Positions 16,170 through 57,845 are shown, counted from the first letter of the stretch. The stretch is DNA of 64,000 nucleotides from an uncultured Alphaproteobacteria bacterium (GCA_902575965.1 CACGTM010000001.1:1-64000); one strand, 5' to 3'. Translations and numbers: made by a program. Notes: a model not told the origin generated them from the sequence alone.

Positions 16170-17582
16170 TTACTTCATTTCATCCATTAGAGAAGTTATT
16201 GCTTCAAGTTTATTGAATTTTTCTAGTTTATTACGAAGGTTCTTGTAGTTGCTATCTTTTAAGTACTTTTTTGAACATTTCTCAAATTTTTCCCAGTATT
16301 CAGAAGTTGAGAAAGGATGATTCTTACTCCCTAGAGGAAAAAAGGTTTTTTCCTCTATCTTTTTTCCATTATCCAGCGTTAAGGTCAATTTTGTTGGTAT
16401 CTCTAATTCTGACTTGTTAAGGCCTATTAATTCAATTTTATTATAAATGCTTTTTAAATCAGGAGATGAAATTTGAGATTCCTGAAATTCGTCAAGTCCA
16501 CATCTTCCTAAGTATAAGATACATGATAAAGCAAACTGCATAGAAAACTTTGCTTGCATGGAGTTTTCAGGATTATGGTACATCAGATTATTCAAATGCG
16601 ATATCGGAGCTTCAACTATAATTTTTTTTACCTTTTCAGGTGTTAAATTAAATTTATTTTTTAAACTTAACATAATGTCCATAGCTCTATGGGCACTTCC
16701 GCAGTTAGGAAAACGTTTTACTCTAAATCCATAAAAATCGATATGAAGAGGGTCCTCAATACAATGAGTGCTAAAACTCAATGTTTGACCATGTTCAGGT
16801 GTACTAATTGATTCCTTAAGTATTTTATAGTCCTGTCCTATCATTAAATGATTTAAACCATTTACACCGTCAAAGGTGTCGAGGCCCGCAGTTATATTAT
16901 TTTTTGCCAAAGAAGCAGCTAAAGCTCCTGATTTTGCTGCAAGACCTGCATGTATAGGTTTCATTTTTGTACCAAATTGACTCATGAACCCTGACGCAAG
17001 ACTGGTTGAAATTGATAATGCAAAAGTTGATTGCTCTGAGTTTAGTTTTAGAAGTCTGGTGCATGCGGCTGTTGCACCAATTGCGCCAACTGTGGCTGTT
17101 GCGTGCCATCCTCTATTTCTGTGGTAAGGATTTAAACCTTGTCCAACTTTACCCATAATTTGTAGACCACAAATATAAGCATCAATACATTGCATTCCCC
17201 CTAAATCATATTCTTCAGCAACTGCTAGTATTGCAGGAACTAATACAGCTGAAGCATGAGCTTTTGCTGGGTCAAAATTATCATCGAAATCAAGTGCATG
17301 GGCAGCAGTTCCATTAACTAAAGCTGCCCATGGAGGACTTAAAGATTTTTTGTTACAAATTAAAGTTGAGCTCCCAGATCCCCAGGATTCAACAGTTTTA
17401 ATAACATCCTTTGTTACCGGTTCTTGTGAACCAGGGATCAAGACAGCAATAAGATCAACAAACTGTAATAGTGCAGATTGTATAGTTTCCTCTTTCCAAG
17501 AATTAGGATATGTCGCGATCCATTTACCATATTCATGAATGGGATTTTTTTGATTTTCTGACAATAAATCTTTACTGCTCAT
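16170..17582 (-). CDS. MmgE/PrpD family protein
   Basis: A 470-residue member of the MmgE/PrpD fold, which includes 2-methylcitrate dehydratase, itaconate-forming cis-aconitate decarboxylase and many uncharacterised enzymes. Family features include GTAAHALDFDDNFDPAKAHAS near residue 75, HRNRGWHATATVGAIGATAA near 155, and MKPIHAGLAAKSGALAA near 207. No neighbouring prpB/prpC is present, so methylcitrate-cycle function should not be assumed. It follows the unknown 247-residue gene by eight bases and is probably co-transcribed with it. Confidence 0.88.
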   Translation of the reverse strand: MSSKDLLSENQKNPIHEYGKWIATYPNSWKEETIQSALLQFVDLIAVLIPGSQEPVTKDVIKTVESWGSGSSTLICNKKSLSPPWAALVNGTAAHALDFDDNFDPAKAHASAVLVPAILAVAEEYDLGGMQCIDAYICGLQIMGKVGQGLNPYHRNRGWHATATVGAIGATAACTRLLKLNSEQSTFALSISTSLASGFMSQFGTKMKPIHAGLAAKSGALAASLAKNNITAGLDTFDGVNGLNHLMIGQDYKILKESISTPEHGQTLSFSTHCIEDPLHIDFYGFRVKRFPNCGSAHRAMDIMLSLKNKFNLTPEKVKKIIVEAPISHLNNLMYHNPENSMQAKFSMQFALSCILYLGRCGLDEFQESQISSPDLKSIYNKIELIGLNKSELEIPTKLTLTLDNGKKIEEKTFFPLGSKNHPFSTSEYWEKFEKCSKKYLKDSNYKNLRNKLEKFNKLEAITSLMDEMK

Positions 17583-17590
17583 TACTATTT

Positions 17591-18334
17591 CTAAAAGAAG
17601 TTTTTTCTTTTTTCATATTCTACCAATTCGTAAAAGGTTTGCATGTATCCAGTACAATATGCTTTCAAAAGAACATAATCTCCATCATTTGTTACCCAAG
17701 TGTGATATGGTGGATGAATATCTGTCCCCATATATTCATCGTCAGTATTTGTGCCATAACTAAAATGGTATGCATTAAATTTCCCTGCTTCTACCTCTAC
17801 AGTTTCTTCGCCATAGTACCTCATTTGTAATCCCTCTTTATGAAGTAGAATAGGTCCATCTGCACCGCGGTGGTGAAATGAACACATAAGATGCAAGTTA
17901 TTAGTATGCGTTCCAGGTCCTTTGGAAATTGGATAAAGGTGAGTATGCATTGCATCAGCCTGAATAGGGTGTGTGCCAAAGAAAGTGGGCTTTGAGTCTA
18001 AATCTAAAGTTTGAGATATGCGGCCTTCTCTAATTGTATAGCCCTCGCATTCGGCTTTATTCTCCGTGAATCGATACCATGTTGAACCAATAAATTCATC
18101 ATCAGTACTAATCTGCACAAATCCATAGGTAGGGTTCCAGTTTTTGTCGATAGTAGTTATAGAGTCTCGAAGAACACGGGGTGAGTTTTCATCAATTGAA
18201 CAATGTGCTCTTAAGGTTCTCGAGCCATCAACATTAATAGTATAAATAAATGTTTCTCCACCTCTTTCTTTATCCATCATTTCTTTCTTTTTTGATGTGT
18301 ATCTTATTCTTCCCCTTATTGTAAAATGCTCCAT
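17591..18334 (-). CDS. Uncharacterised 247-residue protein, paralogue of the gene at 47072
   Basis: I do not recognise a named family. The sequence is beta-rich with no signal peptide or membrane segment, and AGGAG precedes the ATG. It shares a common pattern with the 47072-47830 product: ITRG/IRGR-x-x-YTSKK near the N-terminus, DGSRT, GR(I/V)SQT, HRGA-GP, V-AG-F---HF, and the ending GYMQT-YELVEYE. The spacing is conserved from end to end, so the two are true paralogues. Its neighbour is an MmgE/PrpD gene, and an acyl-CoA synthetase is divergent. A lipocalin- or DUF3108-like barrel is possible but not shown. Confidence 0.75.
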   Translation of the reverse strand: MEHFTIRGRIRYTSKKKEMMDKERGGETFIYTINVDGSRTLRAHCSIDENSPRVLRDSITTIDKNWNPTYGFVQISTDDEFIGSTWYRFTENKAECEGYTIREGRISQTLDLDSKPTFFGTHPIQADAMHTHLYPISKGPGTHTNNLHLMCSFHHRGADGPILLHKEGLQMRYYGEETVEVEAGKFNAYHFSYGTNTDDEYMGTDIHPPYHTWVTNDGDYVLLKAYCTGYMQTFYELVEYEKRKNFF

Positions 18335-18445: not shown

Positions 18446-20083
18446 ATGAAAAATGGAATATACACAAAAGATTTGGATAAAAATAAGGCAAATTTTGAGC
18501 CTTTAAGTCCTGTTTCATTTTTAAAACGAGCTGCAGAGGCATACCCAAGGAGAACAGCAATAGTTTATGGTTCTTTAAGGTATTCCTATAATGAGTTTTA
18601 TGAAAGATGTCGTCTTCTTGCCTCAGCTTTATCTAAAATTAATATAAAAGAGGGTGATACGGTTGCAATTATAGCCCCAAATATTCCTGCACATCTTGAA
18701 GTACATTATGCGGTTCCAATGTTAGGGGCTGTTTTAAACTCAATAAATACAAGGTTAGATGCTGACACTATTTCATTTATTTTAAACCATGGAGAAGCAA
18801 AGGTACTTATTGTCGATCAAGAGTTCTCGGGCCTAATAAGAAACGCATTAAAAAAAGTAGAAAATAAAATTAAAATTATTGAGATTGAAGATTTAGCTGT
18901 TACAAAGGAAGTAGTTTTAAGCGAATTAAAATATGAAAGTTTTTTAAAGACAGGTAGTAAAGATTTTTATCCAGAAATATTAGTTGATGAATGGCAAGCA
19001 ATTGCATTGAGTTATACCTCTGGAACCACAGGAAATCCAAAAGGTGTTGTAACACATCATCGAGGTGCATATCTTAATGCTATAGGAAATATGATGGCTT
19101 GGGGAATGGCTTCTTTTCCAACTTACCTTTGGACTCTCCCTATGTTTCACTGCAATGGCTGGTGTTTTCCATGGACAGTTACTGCTATGACAGGGACACA
19201 TGTATGCTTAAGAAAAGTTGAAACAGAAGTTATCTTTAACTTAATTAGGAATGAAAATATTTCTCATTTCTGTGGTGCTCCTACGGTTTTAAATATGTTA
19301 GTTAATGCTCCAGAGCATGAAAAAATTAACCTGCCAAAATCAGTAAAGGTTATGACCGCCGGTGCAGCACCCCCACCCGCAGTAATTTCAAGTATTGAAA
19401 ACCTTGGAATAGATATTACTCATGCATATGGCTTAACTGAGGTTTACGGTCCATGTGTAGTTTGTTCTTGGCACGATGAGTGGGATGTTTTGCCTGAAGA
19501 TGATAGGGCAGCTTTAAAAGCAAGGCAGGGAGTGAGATACCATGTTGTTGAGGGGTTAGAGGTCATGGATCCAGAAAAAATGTTGTCAGTACCAAATGAT
19601 GGCGAAACCATTGGAGAGGTAATGTTTAGAGGAAATGTTGTTATGAAGGGATACCTCAAAAACAATGAAGCAACTAAAGAAGCTTTGAAAGATGGATGGT
19701 TTCATTCTGGTGATCTTGCTGTAAAACATCCCGATAATTATATAGAAATTCGTGACAGGTCTAAAGATATAATTATTTCCGGAGGTGAAAATATATCAAC
19801 TATTGAAATTGAAGGAATTTTATTTAAGCACCCCTCAGTACTTGAAGCCGCTGTAGTTGCAAAACATGATGACCACTGGGGGGAAACTCCATGCGCTTTT
19901 GTAACTTTGAAAGAAGGTGCAGAAGTTTCCGAAAAGGATTTAATTGAATTTTGTAAGAGTAATATGGCAAAGTTTAAGATACCAAAGACAATTGTATTTG
20001 GTAGTCTGCCTAAAACATCAACAGGAAAAATCCAGAAATTCATATTGAGAGAGCAGGCTCAAGGGTTAGAAGATAGTATTTAA
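18446..20083 (+). CDS. Acyl-CoA synthetase (AMP-forming)
   Basis: Activates a carboxylic acid to its CoA thioester through an acyl-adenylate. The P-loop-like YTSGTTGNPKG is at residues 190-200, AYGLTEVYGP near 330, the GWFHSGDLA hinge region near 410 and the catalytic Lys in LPKTSTGKIQKF near the C-terminus. It is 545 residues long. The N-terminal LSPVSFLKRAAEAYPRRTAI and CNGWCFPW segments resemble the short- and medium-chain acyl-CoA synthetase branch that also includes methylmercaptopropionate-CoA ligases. The substrate cannot be fixed from sequence. Confidence 0.9.
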   Translation: MKNGIYTKDLDKNKANFEPLSPVSFLKRAAEAYPRRTAIVYGSLRYSYNEFYERCRLLASALSKINIKEGDTVAIIAPNIPAHLEVHYAVPMLGAVLNSINTRLDADTISFILNHGEAKVLIVDQEFSGLIRNALKKVENKIKIIEIEDLAVTKEVVLSELKYESFLKTGSKDFYPEILVDEWQAIALSYTSGTTGNPKGVVTHHRGAYLNAIGNMMAWGMASFPTYLWTLPMFHCNGWCFPWTVTAMTGTHVCLRKVETEVIFNLIRNENISHFCGAPTVLNMLVNAPEHEKINLPKSVKVMTAGAAPPPAVISSIENLGIDITHAYGLTEVYGPCVVCSWHDEWDVLPEDDRAALKARQGVRYHVVEGLEVMDPEKMLSVPNDGETIGEVMFRGNVVMKGYLKNNEATKEALKDGWFHSGDLAVKHPDNYIEIRDRSKDIIISGGENISTIEIEGILFKHPSVLEAAVVAKHDDHWGETPCAFVTLKEGAEVSEKDLIEFCKSNMAKFKIPKTIVFGSLPKTSTGKIQKFILREQAQGLEDSI

Positions 20084-20098: not shown

Positions 20099-20881
20099 CT
20101 ATAAATCCCAGTTTGGTTTCCTTTTTTCTACGAAAGCTGAAATTCCTTCTATACAATCATTTTCGAGCATATTTTTTGTCATTACTTCACTGGCATATTC
20201 ATAGCTCTGGCTAATTGGCTTTTCTAGTTGTTCATAGAAAGCTTTCTTACCAATTTCAATGATTCGTTTTGGTTTCTTAGCAATAATATTTGCAAGTTTC
20301 TCAACCTCACAGTCTAAACTATTTTTTTCTACCATTGAGTTGATTAGCCCAAATTGCACAGCAGACTCAGCAGTAATATTCTCACCCGTAAGAAGCATTT
20401 CTAATGATTTCTTTCTTGGAACAACTCTGCTTAATGCAACTGAGGGAGTGGAACAGAATAGTCCAATATTGACTCCTGGGGTTGCAAAGATACTTTCCTT
20501 TGAGGCAATTGCCAGATCGCAAGTTGCAACGAGTTGGCATCCTGCTGCTGTTGCAATTCCATCAACCTTAGCGACAACAGGAATTCTCAATTTAATAATT
20601 TCAATCATCATTTCAGAGCACTTCTCAAAGACTTTTTTTGTGAATTCAGAATTATTTAAAGATTTTAGCTCTTTTAAATCATGCCCTGAGCAAAACGCCG
20701 GCCCTCTTCCGCTAAGTATTACTACTTTAATATCATTATTCTCATTAATATCTTTTATTTCTCTTATCATTAATTCTATTAATTCAAGAGATAAAGCGTT
20801 TCTGGCTTTTGGTCTATTTAATATTAAGTTAGATATGCCATTTTTATCTTCTCTTAATATCAATGGTTCTGTATTTTGCAT
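20099..20881 (-). CDS. Enoyl-CoA hydratase/isomerase family protein
   Basis: Crotonase-fold protein of 260 residues. The oxyanion-hole segments are visible as GRGPAFCSGHDLKEL near residue 60 and VDGIATAAGCQLVATCDLAIA near 105. The SGHDLKE form is typical of the ECHDC3-like branch, whose reaction is poorly defined. The two catalytic Glu residues of true enoyl-CoA hydratases are not evident at the usual positions. It is the last gene of the eleven-gene leftward run, three bases after the VOC gene. Confidence 0.88.
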   Translation of the reverse strand: MQNTEPLILREDKNGISNLILNRPKARNALSLELIELMIREIKDINENNDIKVVILSGRGPAFCSGHDLKELKSLNNSEFTKKVFEKCSEMMIEIIKLRIPVVAKVDGIATAAGCQLVATCDLAIASKESIFATPGVNIGLFCSTPSVALSRVVPRKKSLEMLLTGENITAESAVQFGLINSMVEKNSLDCEVEKLANIIAKKPKRIIEIGKKAFYEQLEKPISQSYEYASEVMTKNMLENDCIEGISAFVEKRKPNWDL

Positions 20882-20884: not shown

Positions 20885-21871
20885 CTATCTTTTTTCTTCA
20901 ATTAGCTCTGTTAATTCCCCGCATGGTCCCAGAAAAACACCGGATCTTTTTCCTTCATAAACATTAACAAGCTTATAAATGAAATTAACATCCAAATTAT
21001 CAATGTTATCAACACTAAAGGTTGTCATGGCAATTCCTGGTGGAAGTTGACCCTTAACCCTTTTTCTTGGGCCTGTATTACTTTTGTACTCATCCAGCTC
21101 AATACTATTTCCCTTTTCTCTTAGACGCATGAGTCCAAGGTTAAATAACTCATTTTCAGGTAAGTTTTGTAATTGAGAAATAAGACCACCCTTTGCCTGA
21201 AACCTATACCCAGTTTTTAAATTTACATTGAATAGGTTTGCGTAAAATGACTCCATTTCATTAATGTTAATTCCTGCAAGTATCATAATAAAAATTCTAC
21301 CAATATCTGATTTTGGTATTGGAAGATTTGATTTAGAACGGTCCCCTGTTTCACATGTCAGGTAAATTACTTCCTCAGCAGGGCCTATGTATTGTGAAGC
21401 TCTAATTGATGAATTACCTCCCATTAGGTTTGCAGGTCCTCCAATGTGTCTAAATTCTGAATGAAGCAATTCAGAATGAATTTTATCAACATCATCGCAT
21501 ATTATTTCAATAGCATTCCAACCCCAAGAGTTCATTGCTTTATAGGAAGGTACTGGATCAATCTCTACTGCCCTAATGAAAACATCTTCTTTACTTTGAG
21601 GTCTAAGCAACACATAGGGTTTCCCAGAGCTTAATGGAGACCCCCATGACAATGCCATTTCATCTGGAACTATAGACTCTTCGACTAATTCGTATTTAAG
21701 CCATTTAGAATAGTAGTTTTTAAAAGTATTTACATTAGGTGCACCAACTGTAGCCATTTTTATCCGGCTTGCTGAAGGAGCTTTATCATTTGTTTTTGCA
21801 TTTAAAGCAACTGGAGCCATGGCTACAAAACCTCCAAAGCTATTAATAAATTTCTTTCTTGTAATCATCAT
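20885..21871 (-). CDS. Exported double-VOC-domain protein (paralogue 3)
   Basis: The 328-residue product begins with a Tat-like leader: TRKKFINSFGG, then a hydrophobic stretch ending near ALNA, although it has RK rather than the usual RR. Two vicinal-oxygen-chelate (glyoxalase/dioxygenase-fold) modules follow, about residues 35-170 and 185-325. Shared features with the genes at 22374 and 23299 are Y--WL-YE near the start, P(Y)VLL-P-S-EDV(F)IR, WGWNA(I)E-I, P-P---IGR-FI-IL, PPG---TTF-VDN and the GELTELIEE ending. The reaction is unknown. Confidence 0.8.
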   Translation of the reverse strand: MMITRKKFINSFGGFVAMAPVALNAKTNDKAPSASRIKMATVGAPNVNTFKNYYSKWLKYELVEESIVPDEMALSWGSPLSSGKPYVLLRPQSKEDVFIRAVEIDPVPSYKAMNSWGWNAIEIICDDVDKIHSELLHSEFRHIGGPANLMGGNSSIRASQYIGPAEEVIYLTCETGDRSKSNLPIPKSDIGRIFIMILAGININEMESFYANLFNVNLKTGYRFQAKGGLISQLQNLPENELFNLGLMRLREKGNSIELDEYKSNTGPRKRVKGQLPPGIAMTTFSVDNIDNLDVNFIYKLVNVYEGKRSGVFLGPCGELTELIEEKR

Positions 21872-21893
21872 TAAGTCCTAGAATATAATACAC

Positions 21894-22355
21894 TTAATTA
21901 TTAACTATAGCCCTTACATTAATTTCCATCTTTAATTCTGGGATTGCAAGCGCACTTACTCCGATGACCATTGAGACAGGTTTATGCCCTGTTGGAAAAA
22001 AATCACGAACATCTTGATAAACTTGCTCAGGGTTAACCTTATCAAGGTCTACAATATAGATTTGTATTTCTATGACATCTTTTCTTGTTGCTCCAGCTGC
22101 ATTTAAAGCCAGTTCAATATTTTCCCATGTTAGCTTTGACTGTGCCTCAAGAGTTTCAGGTATAAACCCATCTGGTCTTAGGCCGGCCTTTCCTCCTAAT
22201 AAAATTAACTTTCCTTGACCCTCAATAGTAACTACCTGTGAATAACCTACAGGCTGGTCCAATCCTTCAGGATTCCATCTTTTTATATTTACTTCAGCAC
22301 TTTTTATTGATGTAGTTGTCATTATTATACCTATGATAATTAGATTCTTAAGCAT
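21894..22355 (-). CDS. Exported RidA/YjgF-family protein
   Basis: A 153-residue Rid protein preceded by a Sec-type leader (residues 1-19, basic then hydrophobic, ending near IKSAE). Rid proteins are usually cytoplasmic imine deaminases. This copy has the family core (VTIEGQGKLILLGGK, ALNAAGATRKDVIEIQIYIVD, FPTGHKPVSMVIGVSALA). At the position of the catalytic Arg of classical RidA it reads PVSMV, so imine hydrolysis by the standard mechanism is unlikely. It sits between the VOC paralogues, which points to a shared, probably periplasmic, substrate. Confidence 0.85.
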   Translation of the reverse strand: MLKNLIIIGIIMTTTSIKSAEVNIKRWNPEGLDQPVGYSQVVTIEGQGKLILLGGKAGLRPDGFIPETLEAQSKLTWENIELALNAAGATRKDVIEIQIYIVDLDKVNPEQVYQDVRDFFPTGHKPVSMVIGVSALAIPELKMEINVRAIVNN

Positions 22356-22373
22356 TTTTACCTCTAAATAAAT

Positions 22374-23285
22374 TTATTCCTCAATAAGCTCTATTAGTTC
22401 CCCCGTATAACCTTTTGCTGTTCTTGATCTTCTTCCATTATAGACAATTGAATTACTTTCTATGATATCTCCCACAAAATCTAAATTTAAATCATTAAGG
22501 CTGTCTACTGTGAAGGTTGCAGTTGAACAACCTGGAGGAAGTTGCCCTTTGTTACAAGGTCTTTTTCCAAATACTCTATCGTAACCATCATATTCTATAA
22601 AATTTCCAAGTGAAGAGAGTGCCATAAAGCCCATATCGTATATATGTCCTTTTGGAAGACTTTGAGCATTTGCTATAACTTCAATAGTAGTTTGCATGTC
22701 CTCTTCTCTTTCAAGTCCAAATTTTGAACAATAAAACTCCTGTACTTCATGTATTCCATTTGCTGCTAAAATCACTATGAATGGTCTTCCAACAAAAGCC
22801 CCAGGTTTTGGTAGTAAACTGTCTGGAGCTTTAACTTTGTCGCATGTGAGATATAAGATTTCTTTTGCTGGCCCTTCAACCTGCATTGCATGTATAAAAT
22901 CTAATTCGCCTCCAAGGCTCGCTGGGGGTCCAATTATTTTAAATGGACTTTCTTTTAATTTCTCATAAAGCTCATAAACATCTTCAATAATTAATTCAAA
23001 TGCATTCCATCCTAAAGATGTCATTGGTTTGTAATTTTTTACTTCGTCAATTTTACAAACACGAATAAATACATCTTCCTCACTAGAAGGCTGAAGTAAT
23101 AGATAGGGTTTATTTTTCATTAGGGGAGTGTTCCATGAGTTAGCAAGTGACTGCTCTACAAAACCCCTCTCGCAAACTTTGTAATCTAACCATTTAGTAT
23201 ACCACTCCTCTACTAGTTCAATATTGTTTGCTGCTATGGTATTGACTTTAATTCTTTTTAATAGCGGAGGGTTGATTTTATTCAT
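22374..23285 (-). CDS. Cytoplasmic double-VOC-domain protein (paralogue 2)
   Basis: A 303-residue protein with two VOC modules and the same landmarks as its two paralogues: WY-KWLDY, PYLLLQPSSEEDVFIR, LGWNAFELI, RPFIVILA, QLPPGCSTATFTVDSL and the ending GELIELIEE. Longer in-frame starts exist upstream, but they run into the preceding gene. The ATG used here has AGGA eight bases before it. Unlike the other two copies it has no leader peptide. It starts 13 bases after the upstream VOC stop. Confidence 0.8.
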   Translation of the reverse strand: MNKINPPLLKRIKVNTIAANNIELVEEWYTKWLDYKVCERGFVEQSLANSWNTPLMKNKPYLLLQPSSEEDVFIRVCKIDEVKNYKPMTSLGWNAFELIIEDVYELYEKLKESPFKIIGPPASLGGELDFIHAMQVEGPAKEILYLTCDKVKAPDSLLPKPGAFVGRPFIVILAANGIHEVQEFYCSKFGLEREEDMQTTIEVIANAQSLPKGHIYDMGFMALSSLGNFIEYDGYDRVFGKRPCNKGQLPPGCSTATFTVDSLNDLNLDFVGDIIESNSIVYNGRRSRTAKGYTGELIELIEE

Positions 23286-23298
23286 TAAAGTTATCCTG

Positions 23299-24282
23299 TT
23301 ATTTATTTTCCTCAATGAGTTCAAGAAGTTCACCTGCTGGTCCGACAACCGTAGCAGATCGTGACCCATATGAATTAATTGGTCTTGTAATATATTTTAG
23401 ATCTAAGTCATCGAGATTTTTTACGGTAATCGAGGTAATGGAAATACCAGGAGGAAGTTCATCAATATTCTGCATTCTTGGCCCCGTGTTATTACCATAA
23501 CCATCCAGCTCTAGGAGATTGCCATGTTCAGATAATGATAGAGTTGTAAGGGGCCTTTCACTATCAAGAGGTATTCCTTGTGCTTTATTGATGAGAGCTA
23601 TTGGTGAATTATTAATTTTTTTCTTTTGCATATTAAATTTCTCAGAATACCAATCTTGAAGTTTAAAAATATCGGGTCCCGCAACAACCATAATAAAAAC
23701 TCTTCCAATCTTTGATTTTGGCCTTGGTAGAGGGGATTTTCTATAGCTTCCAGTTTCTGTTGTGAAATATATAACATCTTCTTCTTTGCCTTGAACTTGC
23801 ATAGCTCTAATGCTTGGATAGTTTTTTAGGGCATCAGGTTCTCCAAGTATCTTAAAGGGAGAATTTTTAAAGTCTTCGTTAAGTCCATCTGGGTCTTCAC
23901 AAATTATTTCAATAGCATTCCATCCCCATGTAGTATTTGCAATATATTTTGGAGGTTGGTTTATTTTGATGAGGCGAATGTAAACGTCCTCTCCACTTGC
24001 TGGTTGCATAACTACATATGGCTGGCCCCCAGTTTTTTCTGCTCCCCAAGATAAAGCTAATTCAACTGGTACGGTTCCTCTTTCAATAGTTTCGTAGTAC
24101 AACCACTCATTATAGAGTTCTTCAGATTCTTCTAAATTCACAACACTAACAGTTGCCATTTTAAATCGAAGTAGTTTAGACAAGTTTTTTTCCTTAGAAT
24201 TAACAATGTTAGTCAAAAATAAACTTACTATAAAGAATAATAAACCAATACTTTTTTTCGAAGGGCAATAGATTTTATACAT
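23299..24282 (-). CDS. Exported double-VOC-domain protein (paralogue 1)
   Basis: The 327-residue product begins with a clear Sec signal (residues about 8-29, with a hydrophobic GLLFFIVSLFLTNIV core). Two VOC modules follow with the family landmarks seen in its paralogues: YNEWLYYE, QPYVVMQPASGEDVYIR, WGWNAIEII, KIGRVFIMVVAG, ELPPGISITSITV, ending GELLELIEE. Whether the His/Glu metal ligands of VOC dioxygenases are kept in both modules is not clear by eye. It lies between the second PuuE-like hydrolase and the cytoplasmic VOC gene. Confidence 0.8.
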   Translation of the reverse strand: MYKIYCPSKKSIGLLFFIVSLFLTNIVNSKEKNLSKLLRFKMATVSVVNLEESEELYNEWLYYETIERGTVPVELALSWGAEKTGGQPYVVMQPASGEDVYIRLIKINQPPKYIANTTWGWNAIEIICEDPDGLNEDFKNSPFKILGEPDALKNYPSIRAMQVQGKEEDVIYFTTETGSYRKSPLPRPKSKIGRVFIMVVAGPDIFKLQDWYSEKFNMQKKKINNSPIALINKAQGIPLDSERPLTTLSLSEHGNLLELDGYGNNTGPRMQNIDELPPGISITSITVKNLDDLDLKYITRPINSYGSRSATVVGPAGELLELIEENK

Positions 24283-24295: not shown

Positions 24296-25216
24296 TTATT
24301 GTTTTTTTATTTCATTTAGTATTTCTATACCTGTAGCGTTCCAAGCAAATTCTCTATTATTTATCCATTCAAAAAGCTTATCTAGGTATTTTATTCGGTA
24401 ATGAAGCCCCATTATATATGGTGTTAGAATTATAGATAATACTCTTCCTCCGTATTGTTCGGACTCCTCATAAAGGGTAGTAAAAGCATCTTGAACTTGT
24501 TCCACAAATTCTTCTTCAGTTTGCTTTTTATCCATTATTATAGTTCTATCCCAAATTTCGCTTCCATGGGGCATAGCCCATATATTTCCAGCCTCACTAT
24601 TCATCTTATAGGGCATATCGTCATTGCACCAATCACACGTGTATTCAATACCATTTGACGCAAGATGCTTGCATGTATTCCAGCTTTCAGATTTAGCTGG
24701 GGACCACCAACCCAATACTTTCTGGTTTGAAATTTTTCTGAGTGTGTCCAAGCTTTCTTTAATTAAATCAGATTCTTTTTTATCATCCATTCCTCCATAA
24801 TGGATTTTGCCCATATCGACACCATGTCCAATAATTTCGTCATTTCTATCATTTATTTTTTTTATGATATAAGGATACCTCTTGGCAACAGAAGAATTTA
24901 CGGCTGCTGAGGCCTTAAGATTATGTTTTGATAAACATTTCCAAATTCTGCTTATGCCAACTCTATTTCCATAGTCACGGGTTGTGAAATGTCTAAGGTC
25001 TGGATATGGAGTTACCATTCCTCCTGGAGCTTTAAAAGGTTCTGATGGTTGATTTAGTGGAAAAAACTCTAAAGAGTAACTTATCCAAACAGCAACTCTA
25101 GCATTATTTGGCCAAATTATTTTTTTTCTTTTTTGTAAGATCGACCAGTCAAAAAAGTTATGGTCCATTCCATACATACGCTTTGGGTATTCTAAATATT
25201 CTTTTTCTAATGTCAT
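24296..25216 (-). CDS. Polysaccharide-deacetylase-fold hydrolase, PuuE-like (copy A)
   Basis: A 306-residue NodB/PuuE-fold protein without a signal peptide, so not a surface polysaccharide enzyme. The usual metal-binding Asp pair after strand 1 reads SYSLEFFPLN here. Other landmarks match allantoinase PuuE and cyclic-imide hydrolase relatives: RDYGNRVGISRIWKCL, AAVNSSVAKRYP, EIIGHGVDMGKIHYGG and LGWWSPAKSESWNT. A metal-independent amidohydrolase acting on a cyclic amide is plausible. It is a diverged tandem paralogue of the next gene upstream (25226-26137). Confidence 0.82.
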   Translation of the reverse strand: MTLEKEYLEYPKRMYGMDHNFFDWSILQKRKKIIWPNNARVAVWISYSLEFFPLNQPSEPFKAPGGMVTPYPDLRHFTTRDYGNRVGISRIWKCLSKHNLKASAAVNSSVAKRYPYIIKKINDRNDEIIGHGVDMGKIHYGGMDDKKESDLIKESLDTLRKISNQKVLGWWSPAKSESWNTCKHLASNGIEYTCDWCNDDMPYKMNSEAGNIWAMPHGSEIWDRTIIMDKKQTEEEFVEQVQDAFTTLYEESEQYGGRVLSIILTPYIMGLHYRIKYLDKLFEWINNREFAWNATGIEILNEIKKQ

Positions 25217-25225: not shown

Positions 25226-26137
25226 TTAATTTTGTTTTTTAATACTTTTTAAACAATCGTCGTAATAATTTTTATAATAATATTCTGCAATTTCACGACC
25301 CGTAGTAATCCAAACATCTTCCTTGCTATGAGATGTTATATAATCCAATGCTTCTTCAAAGCCTCTAATCCTATGAGGGTGACCTACTGCGTATGCATGA
25401 AGAGGGATGCACATTACAGTTCCGCATTCATCTCCTTCTTTGAGTAATTGATCAAATTGATCTTTTATCATTTGAGCATATCGTCGAGGAGTTCCAAGAT
25501 AAGAGTTGTAAACAATTATATCATTAATTTCCAATGAGTAAGGCATTGAGATAAGTTTCCCTTTTGATACATTTAAAGGCTGAGGTGTATCATCTTGAAA
25601 CAAATCACACGTGTAAAGAAATTCATACTCTGCCAGCAAATCAATAGTTTTTTCGGTGTGGGTTAATGCAGGTGCAAGATATCCAGCAAGTTTTTGCCCC
25701 GTAGCATTAAGAACTGATTCAATGCTATCTTCTAAAATAGCCCTTTCCTGTTGTTCGTTCATTTCATATGAATAACGAGTGTTGTATATGCCATGTGAAA
25801 AGAATTCCCATTTTCTATCTTTTGCTTCCTTTATTAGCTCTGGGTGATGATCTATCAGGGCTATGTTAAGTGATACTGACCCTCTTACGTTGTATTTATC
25901 CATAACCTCCATCATGCGCCAGTGTCCAGCTCTATTTCCATAGTCTCTACTTGAGTTTAATAAAACATCAGGGTGTATTCTTGGCCAAGCTTTTCTGAGT
26001 GGATTTACCGGTGGGTTAATTTCATAAAACTCAATATTAGGAGCTACCCAGAAGGCTACCTTTGCCCCGTTAGGCCATCTAATTTTGGGCCTACCTTCAT
26101 AAGCCCAGTAGTCGTAAAGTTTAAGGTCCTCTTTCAC
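25226..26137 (-). CDS. Polysaccharide-deacetylase-fold hydrolase, PuuE-like (copy B)
   Basis: A 303-residue paralogue of copy A. Shared points are WPNGAKVAFWVAPNIEFYEIN (NIEF replaces the NodB Asp pair), SSRDYGNRAGHWRMMEVMD, SLNIALIDHHPE, EFFSHGIYNTRYSYEM and KLAGYLAPALTHTEKT. There is no leader peptide. The HG motif and the YGNR/HWR segment are typical of the PuuE branch rather than chitin or peptidoglycan deacetylases. It starts 11 bases after the isochorismatase-type gene, so ring opening and side-chain amide hydrolysis may be consecutive steps. Confidence 0.82.
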   Translation of the reverse strand: MKEDLKLYDYWAYEGRPKIRWPNGAKVAFWVAPNIEFYEINPPVNPLRKAWPRIHPDVLLNSSRDYGNRAGHWRMMEVMDKYNVRGSVSLNIALIDHHPELIKEAKDRKWEFFSHGIYNTRYSYEMNEQQERAILEDSIESVLNATGQKLAGYLAPALTHTEKTIDLLAEYEFLYTCDLFQDDTPQPLNVSKGKLISMPYSLEINDIIVYNSYLGTPRRYAQMIKDQFDQLLKEGDECGTVMCIPLHAYAVGHPHRIRGFEEALDYITSHSKEDVWITTGREIAEYYYKNYYDDCLKSIKKQN

Positions 26138-26148: not shown

Positions 26149-26811
26149 TTAATTTTTACTTCTTAATAATTCCTTAATATAACTCACAGATTCTATGTCG
26201 GCGTATTTTAATGCAAGATCAGTTAGGTTTGCAAAATGATAGCTTTCATGTTTATCTGCAACACATTCTTCAATAACAATTGTTCTAAAGCTTCTTGACA
26301 AACTGTCTACAGCAGTGGCCCTTACACAGCCGGATGTGGAGCCACCCGTTAATAGTAATGTATCGACTTCATAATGTTTTAGGAGCATTTCAATATGGGT
26401 ACCAAAGAAAACGGATGGCATTCTCTTGTCTACAATATGATCTTGTTTTCTTATGTCTAACCTTTCATCAAGCTCAGATCTGGTAGATCCAAATTTGATG
26501 TTCTGTAAACTATCCTCTGTATCTGTTCTAGTCCCCCAGACACCAGCATCATCTCCAGAATCATGATAGGCAACATATGTCCAAATTACAGGCCAGTTTT
26601 TATTTCTAACTAAACCTGCTATTTCATTAACATAATCTATTTGTTTTGGATCGGTTTCGTATGCTGTTTTGAACAAGTCTTGTCTTGTGTAGGCTTTTTG
26701 AAGGTCGATGTTTATTAGAGCTGCCTTGTTACCAAAACCAAATTTTTTTCTTGCTGGGTTAGATTTCACTTCTTTGTAGATTTGTCGAGCCGTTTTGTTA
26801 GATAGTTCCAT
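26149..26811 (-). CDS. Isochorismatase-family cysteine amidohydrolase
   Basis: A 220-residue cysteine hydrolase with the Asp-Lys-Cys triad visible: Asp36 in NIDLQKAY, Lys129 in VDKRMPS and Cys162 in GSTSGCVRAT, where the cis-peptide precedes the nucleophile. The N-terminal extension before strand 1 and the TSGCVRA form resemble N-carbamoylsarcosine amidohydrolase and maleamate amidohydrolase rather than true isochorismatase. Its place between PuuE-like hydrolases and a hydratase/lyase set suits hydrolysis of a half-amide or carbamoyl compound. The substrate is inferred only. Confidence 0.88.
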   Translation of the reverse strand: MELSNKTARQIYKEVKSNPARKKFGFGNKAALINIDLQKAYTRQDLFKTAYETDPKQIDYVNEIAGLVRNKNWPVIWTYVAYHDSGDDAGVWGTRTDTEDSLQNIKFGSTRSELDERLDIRKQDHIVDKRMPSVFFGTHIEMLLKHYEVDTLLLTGGSTSGCVRATAVDSLSRSFRTIVIEECVADKHESYHFANLTDLALKYADIESVSYIKELLRSKN

Positions 26812-26884: not shown

Positions 26885-27754
26885 TTATTCTTCGTATTGT
26901 TTTACTTTGTCTAAGAGTTCATTGGTTCCCAATAAATCATTTAGCTGTCCAAAGTCTAACATCCTATCTTGAACTTTATCAGTAGATCCATGTTTTTTTA
27001 AATTATTTAGATAATACTGAGCTGCAAATGCAAAGGTCCTAATCATAGACCCTGGAAAGATAATAAAATTAAAGCCTAATTTTTCTAATTGTTGAGAATT
27101 TAATTTAGGGGTTTTACCTCCTTCAACCATGTTGGCTAATAAAGATACTTTCTTGCAAAACTTTTTTCCAATATCTTCCATCTGCTTAATTGACCTGGGT
27201 GCTTCAATAAATAGCATATCTGCTCCTGCTTCCAAATATGCTTCAGCTCTTGATATGGCAGCTTCAAATCCTTCAACTGCAATTGCATCAGTCCTTGCAA
27301 CTATTATTGTATTATCATTTTCAATAGTATCTTTTGCTGCTTTAATTTTTCCAACCATTTGGCCTTGGGTAATTATATCCTTCCCATCAAGATGGCCACA
27401 TCTTTTTGGAATTGTTTGATCTTCTATTTGAATTCCAGATGCTCCAGCGTTTTCAAGAAGCCTTACAGTTCTTTGAACGTTTAGTGCATTACCAAAACCA
27501 GTATCTGCGTCTACAACTAATGGAATTAATAGTCTTTCACGTATTCGTGAAATTGTATTTGCAACTTCTGTTAGTGTTGTAAGTCCAACATCTGACTTGC
27601 CAAGCTGAGAGTATGAAATGCTTGCTCCACTCACGTACGCACATTCAAAGCCTGCATTTTGCACCATTAAACCAGTAAATCCGTCGTATATACCTGGAGC
27701 GATATTAATACTATTATTCTTTAACAAATCTCTTAGTTTTTTAGCATGATTCAC
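26885..27754 (-). CDS. Isocitrate lyase/PEP mutase superfamily lyase
   Basis: A 289-residue member close to 2-methylisocitrate and 2,3-dimethylmalate lyases. The Mg-binding VDADTGFGNA (residues 81-90) and the catalytic KRCGH (117-121, with Cys119) are intact. This argues for a C-C lyase rather than PEP mutase or oxaloacetate decarboxylase, which lack this cysteine. It lies two bases past the LeuD-type gene. That context favours cleavage of a substituted malate to pyruvate plus a short acid over the methylcitrate cycle, since no prpC is nearby. Confidence 0.9.
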   Translation of the reverse strand: MNHAKKLRDLLKNNSINIAPGIYDGFTGLMVQNAGFECAYVSGASISYSQLGKSDVGLTTLTEVANTISRIRERLLIPLVVDADTGFGNALNVQRTVRLLENAGASGIQIEDQTIPKRCGHLDGKDIITQGQMVGKIKAAKDTIENDNTIIVARTDAIAVEGFEAAISRAEAYLEAGADMLFIEAPRSIKQMEDIGKKFCKKVSLLANMVEGGKTPKLNSQQLEKLGFNFIIFPGSMIRTFAFAAQYYLNNLKKHGSTDKVQDRMLDFGQLNDLLGTNELLDKVKQYEE

Positions 27755-27755: not shown

Positions 27756-28277
27756 TTATTCTTTCCTAACTTTTATTTCACCGTCATCAATTTTCTTTCT
27801 AAGAAATGGCATCAACCCCCCTGAAGAAATCATATCCATAAGGTGTTCTGGTATGGGGCTGACATTAATATGTATTTTAGTGGTAAGATTTTTTAATTCT
27901 CCTTTAACGGGATCAATTAAAAGCTCGTCTTTTGGTTTTATTTCACTAGTTGAGTTGTACACAAGAGCAGGTAAGCCAAAATTAAGAGCATTCCGATAAA
28001 AAATACGAGCATAAGATTTGGCAATGATTGCTCCAACTTTCAATTCCTTAAATGCAAGTGCTGCTTGTTCTCTGGCAGATCCAACCCCAAAATTTCTTCC
28101 AGCAACAACTATGTCTCCTGGTTTAACTTCTTTTGCAAATAATGGATCTATTGCTTCCAAACAATGAGAGGCCATAACATCCATGGACTCCTTAAAGTAA
28201 ATTCCTGGAGCCATTACATCTGAATTTATTTCATCCCCAAATACCCATGCCTTACCCCTTATTATTTTTTCTTTCAT
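27756..28277 (-). CDS. Aconitase-family hydratase, small (LeuD-like) subunit
   Basis: A 173-residue swivelling domain of the LeuCD type, with GDIVVAGRNFGVGSAREQAALA near residue 53 and YRNALNFGLPAL near 92. Length and form match the compact small subunits of type-2 isopropylmalate, homoaconitate, maleate and dimethylmaleate hydratases rather than the roughly 200-residue leucine-pathway LeuD. Its start overlaps the large-subunit stop by four bases, and the lyase starts one base after it. Confidence 0.92.
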   Translation of the reverse strand: MKEKIIRGKAWVFGDEINSDVMAPGIYFKESMDVMASHCLEAIDPLFAKEVKPGDIVVAGRNFGVGSAREQAALAFKELKVGAIIAKSYARIFYRNALNFGLPALVYNSTSEIKPKDELLIDPVKGELKNLTTKIHINVSPIPEHLMDMISSGGLMPFLRKKIDDGEIKVRKE

Positions 28278-29542
28278 ATTAGTTCTCTTGGATCAATAAT
28301 CTTACCAGCTACTGCGCTTGCTGCTACTGTATATGGTGATGCGAGGTATACAAATGAGTCTTTTGAGCCCATCCTGCCTTGAAAGTTTCGATTTGTAGAA
28401 GATATACATACTTCTTTTTCTGCAATAACACCGGCGCCAAGACCTGCACAAGCGCCACATCCGGAAGGTAGTATTATACCTCCTGCATTTGTTATTATCT
28501 CTAATGTTCCATCTGATGCTGCTTGAGCCATAATTTTCTTTGAGGAGGGTGCTACCAATAAACGCGTTTTTGGAGATACGCTTTTACCTTTCAATACTCT
28601 CGCTACCATATGTAAATCATTGAGCTTGCCTCCAACACAAGCTCCAATATATGCCTGATCAATCTTAATATTTTCTTGCTCAAATTGCTCAGCAGATGCA
28701 GAGTTTGATGGCTTATGAGGTGCAGCAACTTGCGGCAATAAATTCTCAGCATTAAAGTTATGTGTTTCACAAAAAGATGCATCATCATCACTTTTCCAAC
28801 TTAAAGCATTCGTTTGTGGTTCAACTCCAGCTAATCTTATTGCCTCGAGTGTTGTTTTATCAGGTGCAATAAGCCCTGTCTCTGCTCCCAATTCCGCTGC
28901 CATATTTGTTAATACCATTCTTTCTTGCATTGACATGTTTTTGACCGTACTTCCGCCAAATTCAACTGCTTTAAAGGCATTTTCCATTCCAAGTTTTTTC
29001 GCTAGAAACAACATAATATCTTTTGCTGTTACTCCTCTAGAAAACGAACCTTCCCAGTTGACCTTTATTGTATCCATTACAACTGACCAAATTTTTCCAG
29101 TTACCACCACACCAGTCATTTCAATTGCACCAAAGCCAGCCATGTAACAGCCGAATGCACCTCCCATTGTAGAATGACTATCACCGCCACAGCAGAATAG
29201 CCCAGGCTGGAGATGTCCATTTTCTGCCATTATCACATGGCATATACCTTCCATGTCATAAAAGTGCTTAATATTATAATTCTTTACAAAATCTCTTGTT
29301 AATTTAAGAATAGCAGCACTTTGAGGATCTGCAGCTGGTACAAAGTGGTCTGCAACTACAATCACTTTTTCAGGGTCAAAAACTCCTACTCCTAAATTTT
29401 TTAATCTTGGCCAAATTTTTCTCGGTCCGCCCGAGTCAAGTATCATCGCTATGTCTACATCACATGTAACGATTTCTCCAACTTTAACCTCAGATTTACC
29501 TGATGCTCTTGATAGTATTTTTTGGATAAGAGTTTGGCTCAT
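28274..29542 (-). CDS. Aconitase-family hydratase, large (LeuC-like) subunit
   Basis: A 422-residue iron-sulfur hydro-lyase subunit. Three cysteines that would bind the [4Fe-4S] cluster are visible: one in YIGACVGGKLNDL near residue 310 and two in LPSGCGACAGLG near 362. HFVPAADP and GGDSHSTMGGAFG are catalytic-site segments. At about 420 residues it is the short type-2 LeuC/HacA form, whose members also act on maleate, citraconate and 2,3-dimethylmaleate. The lyase next door makes one of these more likely than leucine synthesis. First gene of the leftward run. Confidence 0.92.
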   Translation of the reverse strand: MSQTLIQKILSRASGKSEVKVGEIVTCDVDIAMILDSGGPRKIWPRLKNLGVGVFDPEKVIVVADHFVPAADPQSAAILKLTRDFVKNYNIKHFYDMEGICHVIMAENGHLQPGLFCCGGDSHSTMGGAFGCYMAGFGAIEMTGVVVTGKIWSVVMDTIKVNWEGSFSRGVTAKDIMLFLAKKLGMENAFKAVEFGGSTVKNMSMQERMVLTNMAAELGAETGLIAPDKTTLEAIRLAGVEPQTNALSWKSDDDASFCETHNFNAENLLPQVAAPHKPSNSASAEQFEQENIKIDQAYIGACVGGKLNDLHMVARVLKGKSVSPKTRLLVAPSSKKIMAQAASDGTLEIITNAGGIILPSGCGACAGLGAGVIAEKEVCISSTNRNFQGRMGSKDSFVYLASPYTVAASAVAGKIIDPRELI

Positions 29543-29672: not shown

Positions 29673-30911
29673 ATGACAAATAAAATTCCTCTTCCACCAC
29701 CATATAACCGGATATATCGTCATAAGGTCCTTCCAGAGGTGAACCATGACGAAAATTCTAGAATGAACTTTATAGCTAACTTAAATATTCATGTTGGAAA
29801 TGTGCTTTTTCCTGGGGTTTCTCGTGCATACAAGAATGAGGTTGAGCCAGACTTTGTAAAAAAATTTGGAAGAAAACCAAAAACATCTATAGAAGTAAGA
29901 AATATCATAAAAGATAATAAAATCTATCAGGCATGGTCAGCAATTAGAAGAAACACTATGGAAATGAGGCACCAGATAGGCCGTTCAATAGTTTATAGGC
30001 AAATTGACAAGCTTATTGATCAGTCAAAAAAGTTAAGCAAAACTAATCCAGAAAATTTACAACTTGATAAAAATGTTAAGATACCAAACTATTTAAGTGC
30101 AATTGATAACCATTGCATGCCTGGTAGTTATTATACCGAGGTTACAGAAAAAGATATTTCAGCTCCTGCAAATTATGAGGCTGGACATTTTACAACCGTT
30201 GCCGGAGGCACTGGACCAAAAAGCGACATTATTGGTAGGGCGATGGCAAATTGGATAAAGGAAAACAATAGTAAGCTTAATCCAAAGGTTATTTACGATA
30301 TTGGCGCGGGAGCCGGCATTAATACTCTCCCTATTGCACAGGCGTTTCCAAATGCAAAGGTGTTTGCGATTGATGTTGCAGCGCCCATGCTTAGATATGG
30401 ACATGCTAGAGCGGTTGATATGGGAGTTGATAATGTGATTTTTAAACAGTGTGATTTTGAGTTTTCTGATTTCAAAGAAAATACTGCAGATCTAATAATT
30501 TCAGCAATGTTTTTTCATGAGATTTCTGCTAAATCGATGAGAAATATTTTTCGCAATTCATTAAGGCTACTTAAACCTGGTAAGTTAATGATACACATGG
30601 AACAACCAAATTTTGATGAAGATACGGAAGCTTTTGAAAAATTTGTTAGAGACTGGGATGCTTGGTACAACGGAGAGCCTTATTGGGCTAAGCTTCATAG
30701 CTTAAACATAGTGGAAGAGATGCTGCAAGTTGGCTTTGATAAAGATAAGGTCTTTGAAACTTCTCAGCAAATCGATCGACATGATGAAAGTTACCCAAGC
30801 TGGTCTGGTCATTTTAGTCGCCATGCTCATGAGGCAAAGATGAGGGCAGATAAAATTAAATCTAACCCAAAAAATAATGGTGGAATATATATGTTTGGTG
30901 CATATAAATAA
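29673..30911 (+). CDS. SAM-dependent methyltransferase with a conserved N-terminal extension (copy 1)
   Basis: A 412-residue protein whose C-terminal half is a class-I methyltransferase: VIYDIGAGAGINTLPIA near residue 207, VFAIDVAAPMLRYGHARA as motif II, and an LRLLKPGKLMIH post-motif. The first 200 residues have no fold I recognise, but the paralogue at 36409-37593 shares them: GRxPKS/T-x-EVR or EIR, YQxAxA, EM-W/RH, and H(C/H)MPG(S/G)Y. It starts the gcdH operon and diverges from the hydratase run. The acceptor substrate is unknown. Confidence 0.82.
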   Translation: MTNKIPLPPPYNRIYRHKVLPEVNHDENSRMNFIANLNIHVGNVLFPGVSRAYKNEVEPDFVKKFGRKPKTSIEVRNIIKDNKIYQAWSAIRRNTMEMRHQIGRSIVYRQIDKLIDQSKKLSKTNPENLQLDKNVKIPNYLSAIDNHCMPGSYYTEVTEKDISAPANYEAGHFTTVAGGTGPKSDIIGRAMANWIKENNSKLNPKVIYDIGAGAGINTLPIAQAFPNAKVFAIDVAAPMLRYGHARAVDMGVDNVIFKQCDFEFSDFKENTADLIISAMFFHEISAKSMRNIFRNSLRLLKPGKLMIHMEQPNFDEDTEAFEKFVRDWDAWYNGEPYWAKLHSLNIVEEMLQVGFDKDKVFETSQQIDRHDESYPSWSGHFSRHAHEAKMRADKIKSNPKNNGGIYMFGAYK

Positions 30912-30946
30912 GCATCACCTTAATTAAAGAATCATGAAGAAATAAA

Positions 30947-32161
30947 ATGAAATCAAAAAAAGAAAAAGAAGACGATTATTCAACTTCATGGGGTACATTT
31001 TCTTGGAAAGATCCTTTTAACATTTATGATGATCTCACTAGTGAAGAGCGGCTTGTTCAGGAAACCGCTAAAAATTTTTCATCTGAGTTTCTTTTGCCAA
31101 AAGTAATTAAATCATTTAGAGAAGAAAAATTCGATACAAGTATTTACCCACATATGGGCTCTTTGGGTCTATTAGGTGTTAATGCACCCGTTAAGTATGG
31201 TGGTTCAGATTTAGGTCATGTTGCTTATGGTCTTGTAGCAAGAGAGATAGAAAAAATAGATTCTGGCTATCGATCGATGCTAAGTGTCCAGTCTTCTCTG
31301 GTTATTTATCCAATTGCGGCTTATGGGTCTGAATATCAGAGAAAAAAATACCTTCCTGGTCTTATAAATGGTGATTTAGTAGGTTGTTTTGGTTTGACTG
31401 AACCAGACTCAGGTTCAGATCCCGGAAGCATGTTAACAAAGGCCAGGAAAACAAATAGTGGATACGTTTTAAATGGGGTTAAGACTTGGATTTCAAATTC
31501 CCCTATCGCAGATATATTTGTAGTTTGGGCTAAAATGGAAGATGGAAAGATTCGAGGGTTTCTCATTGAAAAAGGTTCGAAAGGACTATCTGCTCCTAAA
31601 ATTGAAGGAAAGTTATCATTAAGAACATCACAGACAGGGCAAATAGTTTTAGATGAAGTTGAAGTTGACCAAAATTCTATTTTACCAAATGTTGAAGGTT
31701 TAAAAGGACCTTTTGGATGTCTAAATAAAGCAAGATATGGCATTTCCTGGGGTGCATTGGGCGCTGCTGAAGATTGTTGGCATATATCAAGAAATTATGC
31801 ATTAGAGAGAAAACAGTTTGGAAAACCTTTAGCCCAGACACAGCTGATTCAAAAAAAACTTGTTGATATGCAGACACAAATATTTATGGGTTATTTGGCT
31901 TCCTATAAAGTTGGTAGAGCAATTGATCAGGGAAAATGTGCTCCAGAGCAGATTTCAATAGTTAAAAGAAATAATGCTGGAGTAGCGCTTGAGATTGCAA
32001 GGCATGCGAGGGACATTCTTGGAGGAAATGGAATCCAGGAAGACTATCATGTAATGAGACATATGATTAACTTGGAAACTGTAAATACTTACGAGGGAAC
32101 ACATGATATTCATGCCCTAATTCTTGGAAGAGCACAAACAGGATTACAAGCTTTTTTTTAG
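30947..32161 (+). CDS. gcdH: Glutaryl-CoA dehydrogenase
   Basis: Oxidises and decarboxylates glutaryl-CoA to crotonyl-CoA in lysine, tryptophan and aromatic catabolism. The 404-residue protein follows GcdH throughout: [73 protein letters not shown] and the catalytic Glu383 in NTYEGTHD. The SGYRS/SVQSS and GPFGCLN segments separate it from ordinary acyl-CoA dehydrogenases. Glutaconyl-CoA-producing relatives are a minor alternative. Confidence 0.94.
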
Positions 32162-32169
32162 GAAGATAA

Positions 32170-32511
32170 ATGAAATTTGCTTTTATATGCCTTGATGATG
32201 GAAATCAGGAAGAGAAAAGAAGTAAACTTTTGATAGAGCACCTTGAATATATTGAAAGTGTGTTAGATAAAGTGGTTATTGCTGGAGCTTGTCCTGTTAG
32301 TGAGAAAGATTTTGCTAAAGGTTCCCAGGGGTCTATTTTAGTTTACGAGGCAGAGACAAGGGAAAAAGCAATGTCCCTATTTGAGGGCGATCCATACGTG
32401 AAAAATAATATTTGGAAGGATGTAAAAATACTTCCTTGGAATCCAGTTGCAGGAAAATTAATAGGTGGTAAGACTTGGGAAATTAAAGATGGAAAACTTA
32501 AGAGGTCATAA
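32170..32511 (+). CDS. YciI-like protein
   Basis: A 113-residue ferredoxin-like protein of the YciI/YCII family, with the His-free start FAFICLDDG, the GSILVYEAETREKAMSLFEGDPYVKNNIWKDVKILPWNPV core and the typical DPY/W pattern. YciI proteins are small putative hydrolases or dehalogenase-like enzymes of uncertain role. It follows gcdH by eight bases and converges on the double hydrolase gene with a four-base gap. Confidence 0.82.
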   Translation: MKFAFICLDDGNQEEKRSKLLIEHLEYIESVLDKVVIAGACPVSEKDFAKGSQGSILVYEAETREKAMSLFEGDPYVKNNIWKDVKILPWNPVAGKLIGGKTWEIKDGKLKRS

Positions 32512-32515
32512 TTTT

Positions 32516-34213: not shown

Positions 34214-34239
34214 AAAAGCTTCCTATGAAAATTAAAAAA

Positions 34240-35469: not shown

Positions 35470-35560
35470 AATAATTGTCCAAAAGTTTAATTTTTTTATA
35501 GTTCTTAAAGCATTTCAACATTTATTGCGAATTTATTTAGTATAAAAATAAAGAATTTGA

Positions 35561-36397: not shown

Positions 36398-36408
36398 AAT
36401 TCTTTTTC

Positions 36409-56440: not shown

Positions 56441-56959
56441 TTAATAACCAGCTTCTTCTTCCAGATTATTATCACGGCCCATTACGAGTATTGTTCTTTT
56501 ATACGAGCAAATAATATCATGATTTTGATTCTTCCCAATTGTTTCAACAGTCACAATTCCTTGTCCAGGACGAGATTTGCTTGGTCTCTTATCAAGAACT
56601 TTTGACTCAGCATAAATTGTATCTCCAGCAAAAACAGGATGGGACATTTTTATATCAGTCCACCCTAGGTTTGCTATAGCTTTTTGGCTAATGTCAGAAA
56701 CACTCATTCCAGTAATAATAGATAATGTTAATGTTGAAACTATAAGTGGTTTTTTGAACTCGGTATGTTTTGCATATTCTACATCAAAATGAAGAGGGTG
56801 AGTATTCATTGTTAAAGTTGTAAACCAAATATTATCAGTTAGCGTTAATGTTCTTCCAGGCCGGTGTTCATAAATATCTCCAACCTTAAAATCTTCGAAA
56901 TATCTTCCTCCTCTCTCGCGGTATCTATTTTCTCCTACATTAGCCGCTTCTACAACCAT
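56441..56959 (-). CDS. MaoC-family enoyl-CoA hydratase-like protein
   Basis: A 172-residue hot-dog-fold protein with the R-hydratase motif TDNIWFTTLTMNTHPLHFD, where Asp and His form the catalytic pair, and HPVFAGDTIYAESKVL downstream. Alphaproteobacterial relatives include mesaconyl-CoA and itaconyl-CoA hydratases. Between an acyl-CoA dehydrogenase and an SDR it would hydrate the 2-enoyl-CoA. Confidence 0.88.
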   Translation of the reverse strand: MVVEAANVGENRYRERGGRYFEDFKVGDIYEHRPGRTLTLTDNIWFTTLTMNTHPLHFDVEYAKHTEFKKPLIVSTLTLSIITGMSVSDISQKAIANLGWTDIKMSHPVFAGDTIYAESKVLDKRPSKSRPGQGIVTVETIGKNQNHDIICSYKRTILVMGRDNNLEEEAGY

Positions 56960-57843: not shown

Positions 57844-57845
57844 TG

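Follow-up and report, generated by a model that had tools for sequence, protein, structure and literature searches.

The stretch analysed here, referred to as the window, comprises 64,000 nucleotides from an uncultured alphaproteobacterium (CACGTM010000001.1:1-64000). Its minus strand carries three genes for paralogous VOC proteins, which we designated A, B and C, within a run of genes that resembles a catabolic operon. Judged from their sequences, these proteins are a new, widespread, metal-free and partly exported branch of a known fold, and we did not find the operon described. The VOC genes are as follows.

23299-24282, minus strand: VOC paralogue A; Sec-like leader in the window's genus, SRRxA Tat leaders in relatives
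22374-23285, minus strand: VOC paralogue B; leaderless, cytosolic by prediction, 6 Cys
20885-21871, minus strand: VOC paralogue C; Tat-like leader TRKKF (RK variant)

Pairwise identity was 40% for A/B, 45% for A/C and 42% for B/C over 293-299 residues, which is nearly the whole mature length. The longest open reading frame of B starts at 23369, within A; we placed the start at the ATG at 23285, which gives MNKINPPLLKRI, because this sequence aligns with the starts of the B orthologues. The ratios of nonsynonymous to synonymous substitutions (dN/dS) relative to the sister species were low for A, B and C (∼0.08-0.13; dN 0.08-0.11, dS 0.74-1.0), and all three are therefore under purifying selection. 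A fourth, distant VOC paralogue is encoded on another contig of the same genome.

The AlphaFold2 models of A and B (mean predicted local distance difference test scores of 91.1 and 94.2, respectively) have the same order of elements, and both are predicted to adopt the two-module VOC fold, with paired beta-alpha-beta-beta-beta modules and two cupped sheets. C was placed by its 45% identity to A. Over their whole length (∼250 residues) the models match the two-module proteins PcpA (4huz), B. subtilis 3oaj, B. cereus 1zsw and maize glyoxalase I (5d7z) with Z scores of 22-23, at an identity of only 8-16%. Toxoflavin lyase TflA (3pkv) also has the VOC fold, with Z scores of 12.7 and 11.9 to the A and B models. 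This Mn-dependent protein of ∼220 residues destroys an N-heterocycle, and we know of no leader reported for it. A search of PDB sequences with single proteins or a profile gave no significant match, and the family was placed by fold comparison alone. A, B and C scored 13-15.5 bits against Pfam Glyoxalase PF00903, whose gathering score of 20.6 is a detection threshold and not a structural requirement. An earlier reading made from the sequence only had described three related, clustered two-module VOC proteins that arose by duplication; the 40-45% identity, the invariant residues that they have in common and the matching fold predictions for A and B agree with this description.

That reading had also proposed a check for a two-His-one-Glu metal site in both modules, and no such site was found. 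To locate the metal columns, motif positions were aligned by hand, with PcpA and the strand pattern of the VOC fold setting the register. The PcpA ligand residue numbers, as we take them to be, put the metal ligands at M42, about I282 and E321. The M42 and I282 columns are never His in 47 sequences and E321 is the sole ligand kept, so the column analysis rejects the two-His-one-Glu site. A holds one His in the entire protein, so that no choice of register could give it a two-His site. Neither the 2-His-1-carboxylate site of type-I extradiol dioxygenases nor the ligand set of glyoxalase I (His/Gln, Glu, His/Glu) is present in these columns, where one carboxylate is kept. The named metalloenzymes among the four structural relatives bind metal, whereas the A/B/C family lacks the ligands. 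Twelve columns are invariant in the 47 sequences: T44, A76, W79, R103, G120, E125, P149, G165, L185, R269, E321 and E324. Strand position suggests which of these residues may share a pocket.

Leaders were called from motif, hydropathy, orthologue comparison and cysteine content. The leader of A, KKSIGLLFFIVSLFLTNIVNS, has a 12-residue stretch after KK with a mean hydropathy of 2.97 and no RR, and is Sec-like. The twin-arginine motif is absent from it in the window (PSKKSIG) and in the sister (RQKLKIG), and SRRxA is present in the other orthologues. The leader of C, TRKKFINSFGGFVAMAPVALNA, combines TRKKF with a moderate h-region (1.89) and is Tat-like with RK for RR; compared with the S/T-R-R-x-F-L-K motif, the second arginine is a lysine, and SRKxF is kept across the C clade. 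B has no leader, its domain being preceded by just 12 residues, and the B orthologues were leaderless in every case examined. Genes for TatA, TatB and TatC are present in the window genome. Among relatives in the bacterial family, leaders carry SRRxA in A, SRKxF in C, and SRRxV or TRRxV in a further paralogue, D. As the relatives' A proteins have SRRxA, A changed from a Tat-type to a Sec-type leader within the window's genus alone, a group of small metagenome-assembled genomes (MAGs) of 1.4-1.7 Mb.

The mature parts of leader-bearing copies contain a median of 1 cysteine and those of leaderless copies ∼3.5 (Mann-Whitney p = 1e-4, indicative only, as the rows share ancestry). On a tree built from the mature parts only, the leader state changes at least four times. 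One leaderless copy lies within the otherwise exported C clade (L034 8751-9644, the same as L057 15345-16238) and represents an independent switch of address. These data agree with the sequence-only reading of one Sec, one Tat-like and one absent leader. Its claim that the copies diverged in targeting is supported by the leaders, their conservation among orthologues and the cysteine content, except that the Tat-to-Sec change of A concerns the window's genus only. Hence A and C are apparently exported beyond the inner membrane and B is kept inside. VOC proteins are usually regarded as cytosolic metalloenzymes or antibiotic binders. To our knowledge PcpA, 3oaj, 1zsw and maize glyoxalase I are all cytosolic, in contrast to the leaders on two of the three copies here.

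The A, B and D clades had SH-like approximate likelihood ratio supports of 100 and the C clade 97. Each clade spans several genera, and therefore the duplications are older than the bacterial family. Relatives carry three to six tandem VOC copies, the six being at locus L034. The VOC family was found in 8 of the 41 genomes of a nearer sample; when 150 genomes of the order were surveyed with a profile (E 1e-40), it was found in the window genome alone. A flavobacterial VOC protein (L073 9194-10906; 570 aa) is a predicted lipoprotein, in which the two VOC modules follow an additional N-terminal domain of ∼270 residues.

Read from LeuC, the order of the genes is LeuC, LeuD, PrpB-type lyase, isochorismatase, PuuE1, PuuE2, A, B, RidA-like, C and enoyl-CoA hydratase. 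These genes, other than A, B and C, and their neighbours are listed below.

28274-29542, minus strand: LeuC-type hydratase large subunit, distinct from the two canonical LeuC elsewhere in the genome
27756-28277, minus strand: LeuD/DmdB-type hydratase small subunit, a TIGR02087 match
26885-27754, minus strand: PrpB/PEP-mutase-type C-C lyase, methylisocitrate/dimethylmalate lyase-like
26149-26811, minus strand: isochorismatase-type amidase, with N-carbamoylsarcosine amidohydrolase among its nearest solved relatives
25226-26137, minus strand: PuuE1-like polysaccharide deacetylase/cyclic-imidase-type hydrolase, strongly conserved (79-95% in relatives)
24296-25216, minus strand: PuuE2-like polysaccharide deacetylase/cyclic-imidase-type hydrolase
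21894-22355, minus strand: RidA-like protein between B and C, with a Sec-type leader and PVS in place of PxR
20099-20881, minus strand: enoyl-CoA hydratase family protein, the conserved final gene of the run
18446-20083, plus strand: acyl-CoA synthetase, 55% to its counterpart beside the same set on plasmid pJE1
16170-18334, minus strand: MmgE/PrpD protein and DUF3108-like protein, homologues of pJE1 cluster genes
29673-32161, plus strand: methyltransferase-domain protein and acyl-CoA dehydrogenase, divergent neighbours conserved in relatives

The best solved-structure match for both PuuE1 and PuuE2, which have a NodB-type domain, was 3cl6 (PuuE). They scored 96 and 129 bits against the NCBIfam TIGR03212 allantoinase equivalog, below its cutoff of 425. 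The LeuD/DmdB-type subunit passed the TIGR02087 subfamily cutoff (169 versus 109 bits). The PrpB-type lyase, for which 3fa3 was among the structures named, fell below the TIGR02317 methylisocitrate lyase PrpB equivalog (298 versus 354 bits); it belongs to the PrpB superfamily, likely with another substrate. Since the genome has two canonical LeuC genes elsewhere, the LeuCD copy of the operon is not needed for leucine synthesis, which makes a role in that pathway unlikely.

The RidA-like gene, which the sequence-only reading had not listed, was kept in every operon of the family examined, and all 13 distinct operon copies encode an N-terminal leader. The protein matches the family of RidA imine deaminases, but it is exported by prediction and lacks their catalytic arginine, with PVS replacing PxR in 13/13 distinct operon copies. 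Therefore, canonical imine deamination is unlikely. A RidA-like gene is also found downstream of the VOC gene in two gammaproteobacterial MAGs (L064 and L068).

Close relatives preserve the operon order, with D and extra C-type copies added. We examined 30 VOC loci from a genome collection, belonging to several orders and a flavobacterium; some MAG-contig labels in it may be wrong. PuuE1, PuuE2 and the isochorismatase were near VOC genes in 17 of them, among which were loci of sphingomonads, that of the flavobacterium and one on a contig with the label Marinimicrobia. PuuE1 was within ∼10 kb of VOC on seven of the eight VOC-bearing plasmids, including pJE1 and pTomTYG65b. On the plasmids, in other sphingomonads and in the flavobacterium, a CoA-transferase III and an HMG-CoA-lyase-like protein join or replace PrpB behind the LeuCD-type hydratase; the pairing of one type of hydratase with either of two lyase modules that are not related to each other strengthens the case for a substituted-malate intermediate.

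Cores of PuuE1, PuuE2 and isochorismatase that lack this VOC family, several with LeuCD and PrpB, are also found outside the window's family within the order and on plasmids of beta- and alphaproteobacteria. The core pathway is therefore separable from a VOC front end, and we rejected the VOC proteins as an essential part of it. VOC-free cores often carry an FAD_binding_2 protein, GntR, and a TRAP or branched-chain ABC importer; these importers suggest that the core substrate is small and soluble. Seven such loci (L083-L086 and L088-L090), several on plasmids, have TRAP, ABC, MFS or other transport genes together with a GntR, IclR or LysR regulator.

We propose, with a probability of about 0.5, that A, B and C are metal-free paralogous VOC proteins of an operon that most likely degrades a small nitrogen heterocycle, and that they act on or bind its precursor. 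The PuuE-type pair would open a cyclic imide or lactam, and the isochorismatase-type amidase would then remove the amide nitrogen. The LeuCD-type hydratase would add water to the resulting substituted maleate, followed by cleavage by the PrpB-type lyase to pyruvate and a short acid that coenzyme A enzymes would process. At the front of the pathway, the two VOC copies outside the inner membrane and the one inside would act on the precursor, or bind it and pass it on. The homology, the predicted fold of A and B, the lack of a metal site, and the conservation of the leaders and of the gene set come from the sequences and models themselves. In contrast, we infer the order of the reactions, the class of substrate and the part played by the VOC proteins, the last from their place in the operon, the charged residues that never vary and the retained division between the two sides of the membrane.

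LeuCD-type hydratases hydrate cis-unsaturated diacids, and PrpB-type lyases split substituted malates into pyruvate or glyoxylate and an acid. In nicotinate fermentation, the dimethylmaleate hydratase DmdAB is followed by dimethylmalate lyase, that is, a LeuCD-type and then a PrpB-type enzyme, as in the window operon; as far as we know, that pathway has no imide hydrolase or VOC protein. PuuE-type hydrolysis of cyclic imides with an amidase next is described, in the part of the account considered here, for HxnM/HxnN of Aspergillus nidulans and for the cyclic imide hydrolase AAY98498 of P. putida (PMC9304392); together with what is known of the family, this supports PuuE-type proteins as hydrolases of cyclic imides or amides. 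That part names no VOC protein, LeuCD hydratase or PrpB lyase (PMC9304392). HxnN belongs to an amidase family other than that of the window's isochorismatase-type amidase.

Several observations weigh against this proposal. Thirteen of the 30 VOC loci had no PuuE/isochorismatase set in the flank examined, several of these flanks being short, and the core exists without VOC proteins, which are thus not essential to it. The PuuE, isochorismatase and LeuCD families take many substrates, and all equivalog cutoffs for named functions were missed. The conserved catabolic operon that A, B and C share makes it plausible that they act on one compound, but the exported and cytosolic copies could serve different compounds.

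A serious rival to VOC catalysis, possible in our estimate if not probable, is that the VOC proteins are non-catalytic binders, like the bleomycin- and tiancimycin-binding members, and hold a toxic or hydrophobic intermediate in periplasm and cytosol as other enzymes work on it. The absent metal site and the TonB receptor gene carried by several VOC loci would suit such a function. The structural matches include VOC proteins that bind antibiotics, for example TnmS, yet with a Z score of ∼10 and over one module only. Invariance of R103, E125, R269, E321 and E324 down to ∼30% identity, however, seems to exceed the needs of binding, and several orthologous paralogues are retained side by side. 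We therefore favoured, from the residues conserved, a putative metal-independent catalysis via an Arg/Glu/Tyr set (R103, E125, Y172, R269 and E321) over pure binding. Ordinary metal-dependent type-I extradiol dioxygenases acting on a catechol would share the two-module fold of PcpA and related enzymes; with non-His residues in the His columns of 47/47 sequences, a single His in A and no aromatic ring-cleavage partners seen in the core operon, the sequence refutes their 2-His-1-carboxylate site and makes this explanation extremely improbable.

The core could alternatively degrade ureides or hydantoins, with the PuuE proteins as allantoinase-like enzymes and the isochorismatase as an N-carbamoyl amidohydrolase. 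PuuE allantoinase and N-carbamoylsarcosine amidohydrolase are indeed the best named matches, and HyuA/HyuB genes lie near the set on pJE1 and in Salipiger. We consider this unlikely, given that PuuE1 and PuuE2 scored far under the allantoinase cutoff and that ureide breakdown offers no evident place for LeuCD and PrpB, or for CoA-transferase and HMG-lyase.

Returning to the degradation of a nitrogen heterocycle, tetrapyrroles are known to yield substituted maleimides on oxidation (PMC7318184, among others). Of the natural sources, we considered tetrapyrrole-derived substituted maleimides the most likely, at low probability. A more specific and rather doubtful version is that the operon encodes an undescribed pathway assimilating alkylmaleimides or lactams from chlorophyll, bilin or heme breakdown, in which the VOC and RidA-like proteins would do the first ring chemistry. 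Hints to it are the series of imidase, amidase, maleate hydratase and lyase, the two alternative lyase modules, and the TonB receptors, old-yellow-enzyme relative, HapK and 5-oxoprolinase-type genes near the sphingomonad set. The old-yellow-enzyme relative is distant kin of bilirubin reductase and BaiCD. The HapK gene (REDY-like, a prodiginine cluster family; L092 2276-2596) adjoins the imide-type pathway on pJE1; HapK was not supported as a general pathway member, being found in only two of eight family genomes and on none of the operon contigs. The literature on exported VOC proteins, tetrapyrrole-derived maleimide catabolism and pJE1 yielded no description of the system, which is weak evidence, as most subscription journals lay outside the coverage.

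A widespread VOC family that has lost the metal site, with up to six copies in tandem and members kept both inside and outside the inner membrane, would widen the known uses of the fold. Marine Alphaproteobacteria, a flavobacterium and plasmids of sphingomonads all carry these genes next to the putative imide-to-pyruvate pathway. Identifying the substrate would reveal a source of carbon and nitrogen that is used in ocean and soil, and would assign functions to about ten families labelled 'polysaccharide deacetylase', 'isochorismatase' or 'hypothetical protein'.

Matches to pJE1 in the window lie between 16 and 59 kb and include the acyl-CoA synthetase (55%), an SDR (50%), two DUF3108-like proteins, methyltransferases, a cupin and a double alpha/beta hydrolase. 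Homologues of the pJE1 cluster are scattered at 16170-18334, 29673-37593, 47072-47830 and 56441-59366, and therefore most of the window looks like one catabolic neighbourhood. The window also encodes the TRAP components DctP and DctM. An amidase-signature protein (47929-49350) adjoins the second DUF3108-like protein (47072-47830). A third PuuE-type polysaccharide deacetylase is located at 56971-57927, with an SDR, a MaoC/mesaconyl-CoA-hydratase-like protein and an acyl-CoA dehydrogenase as its neighbours.

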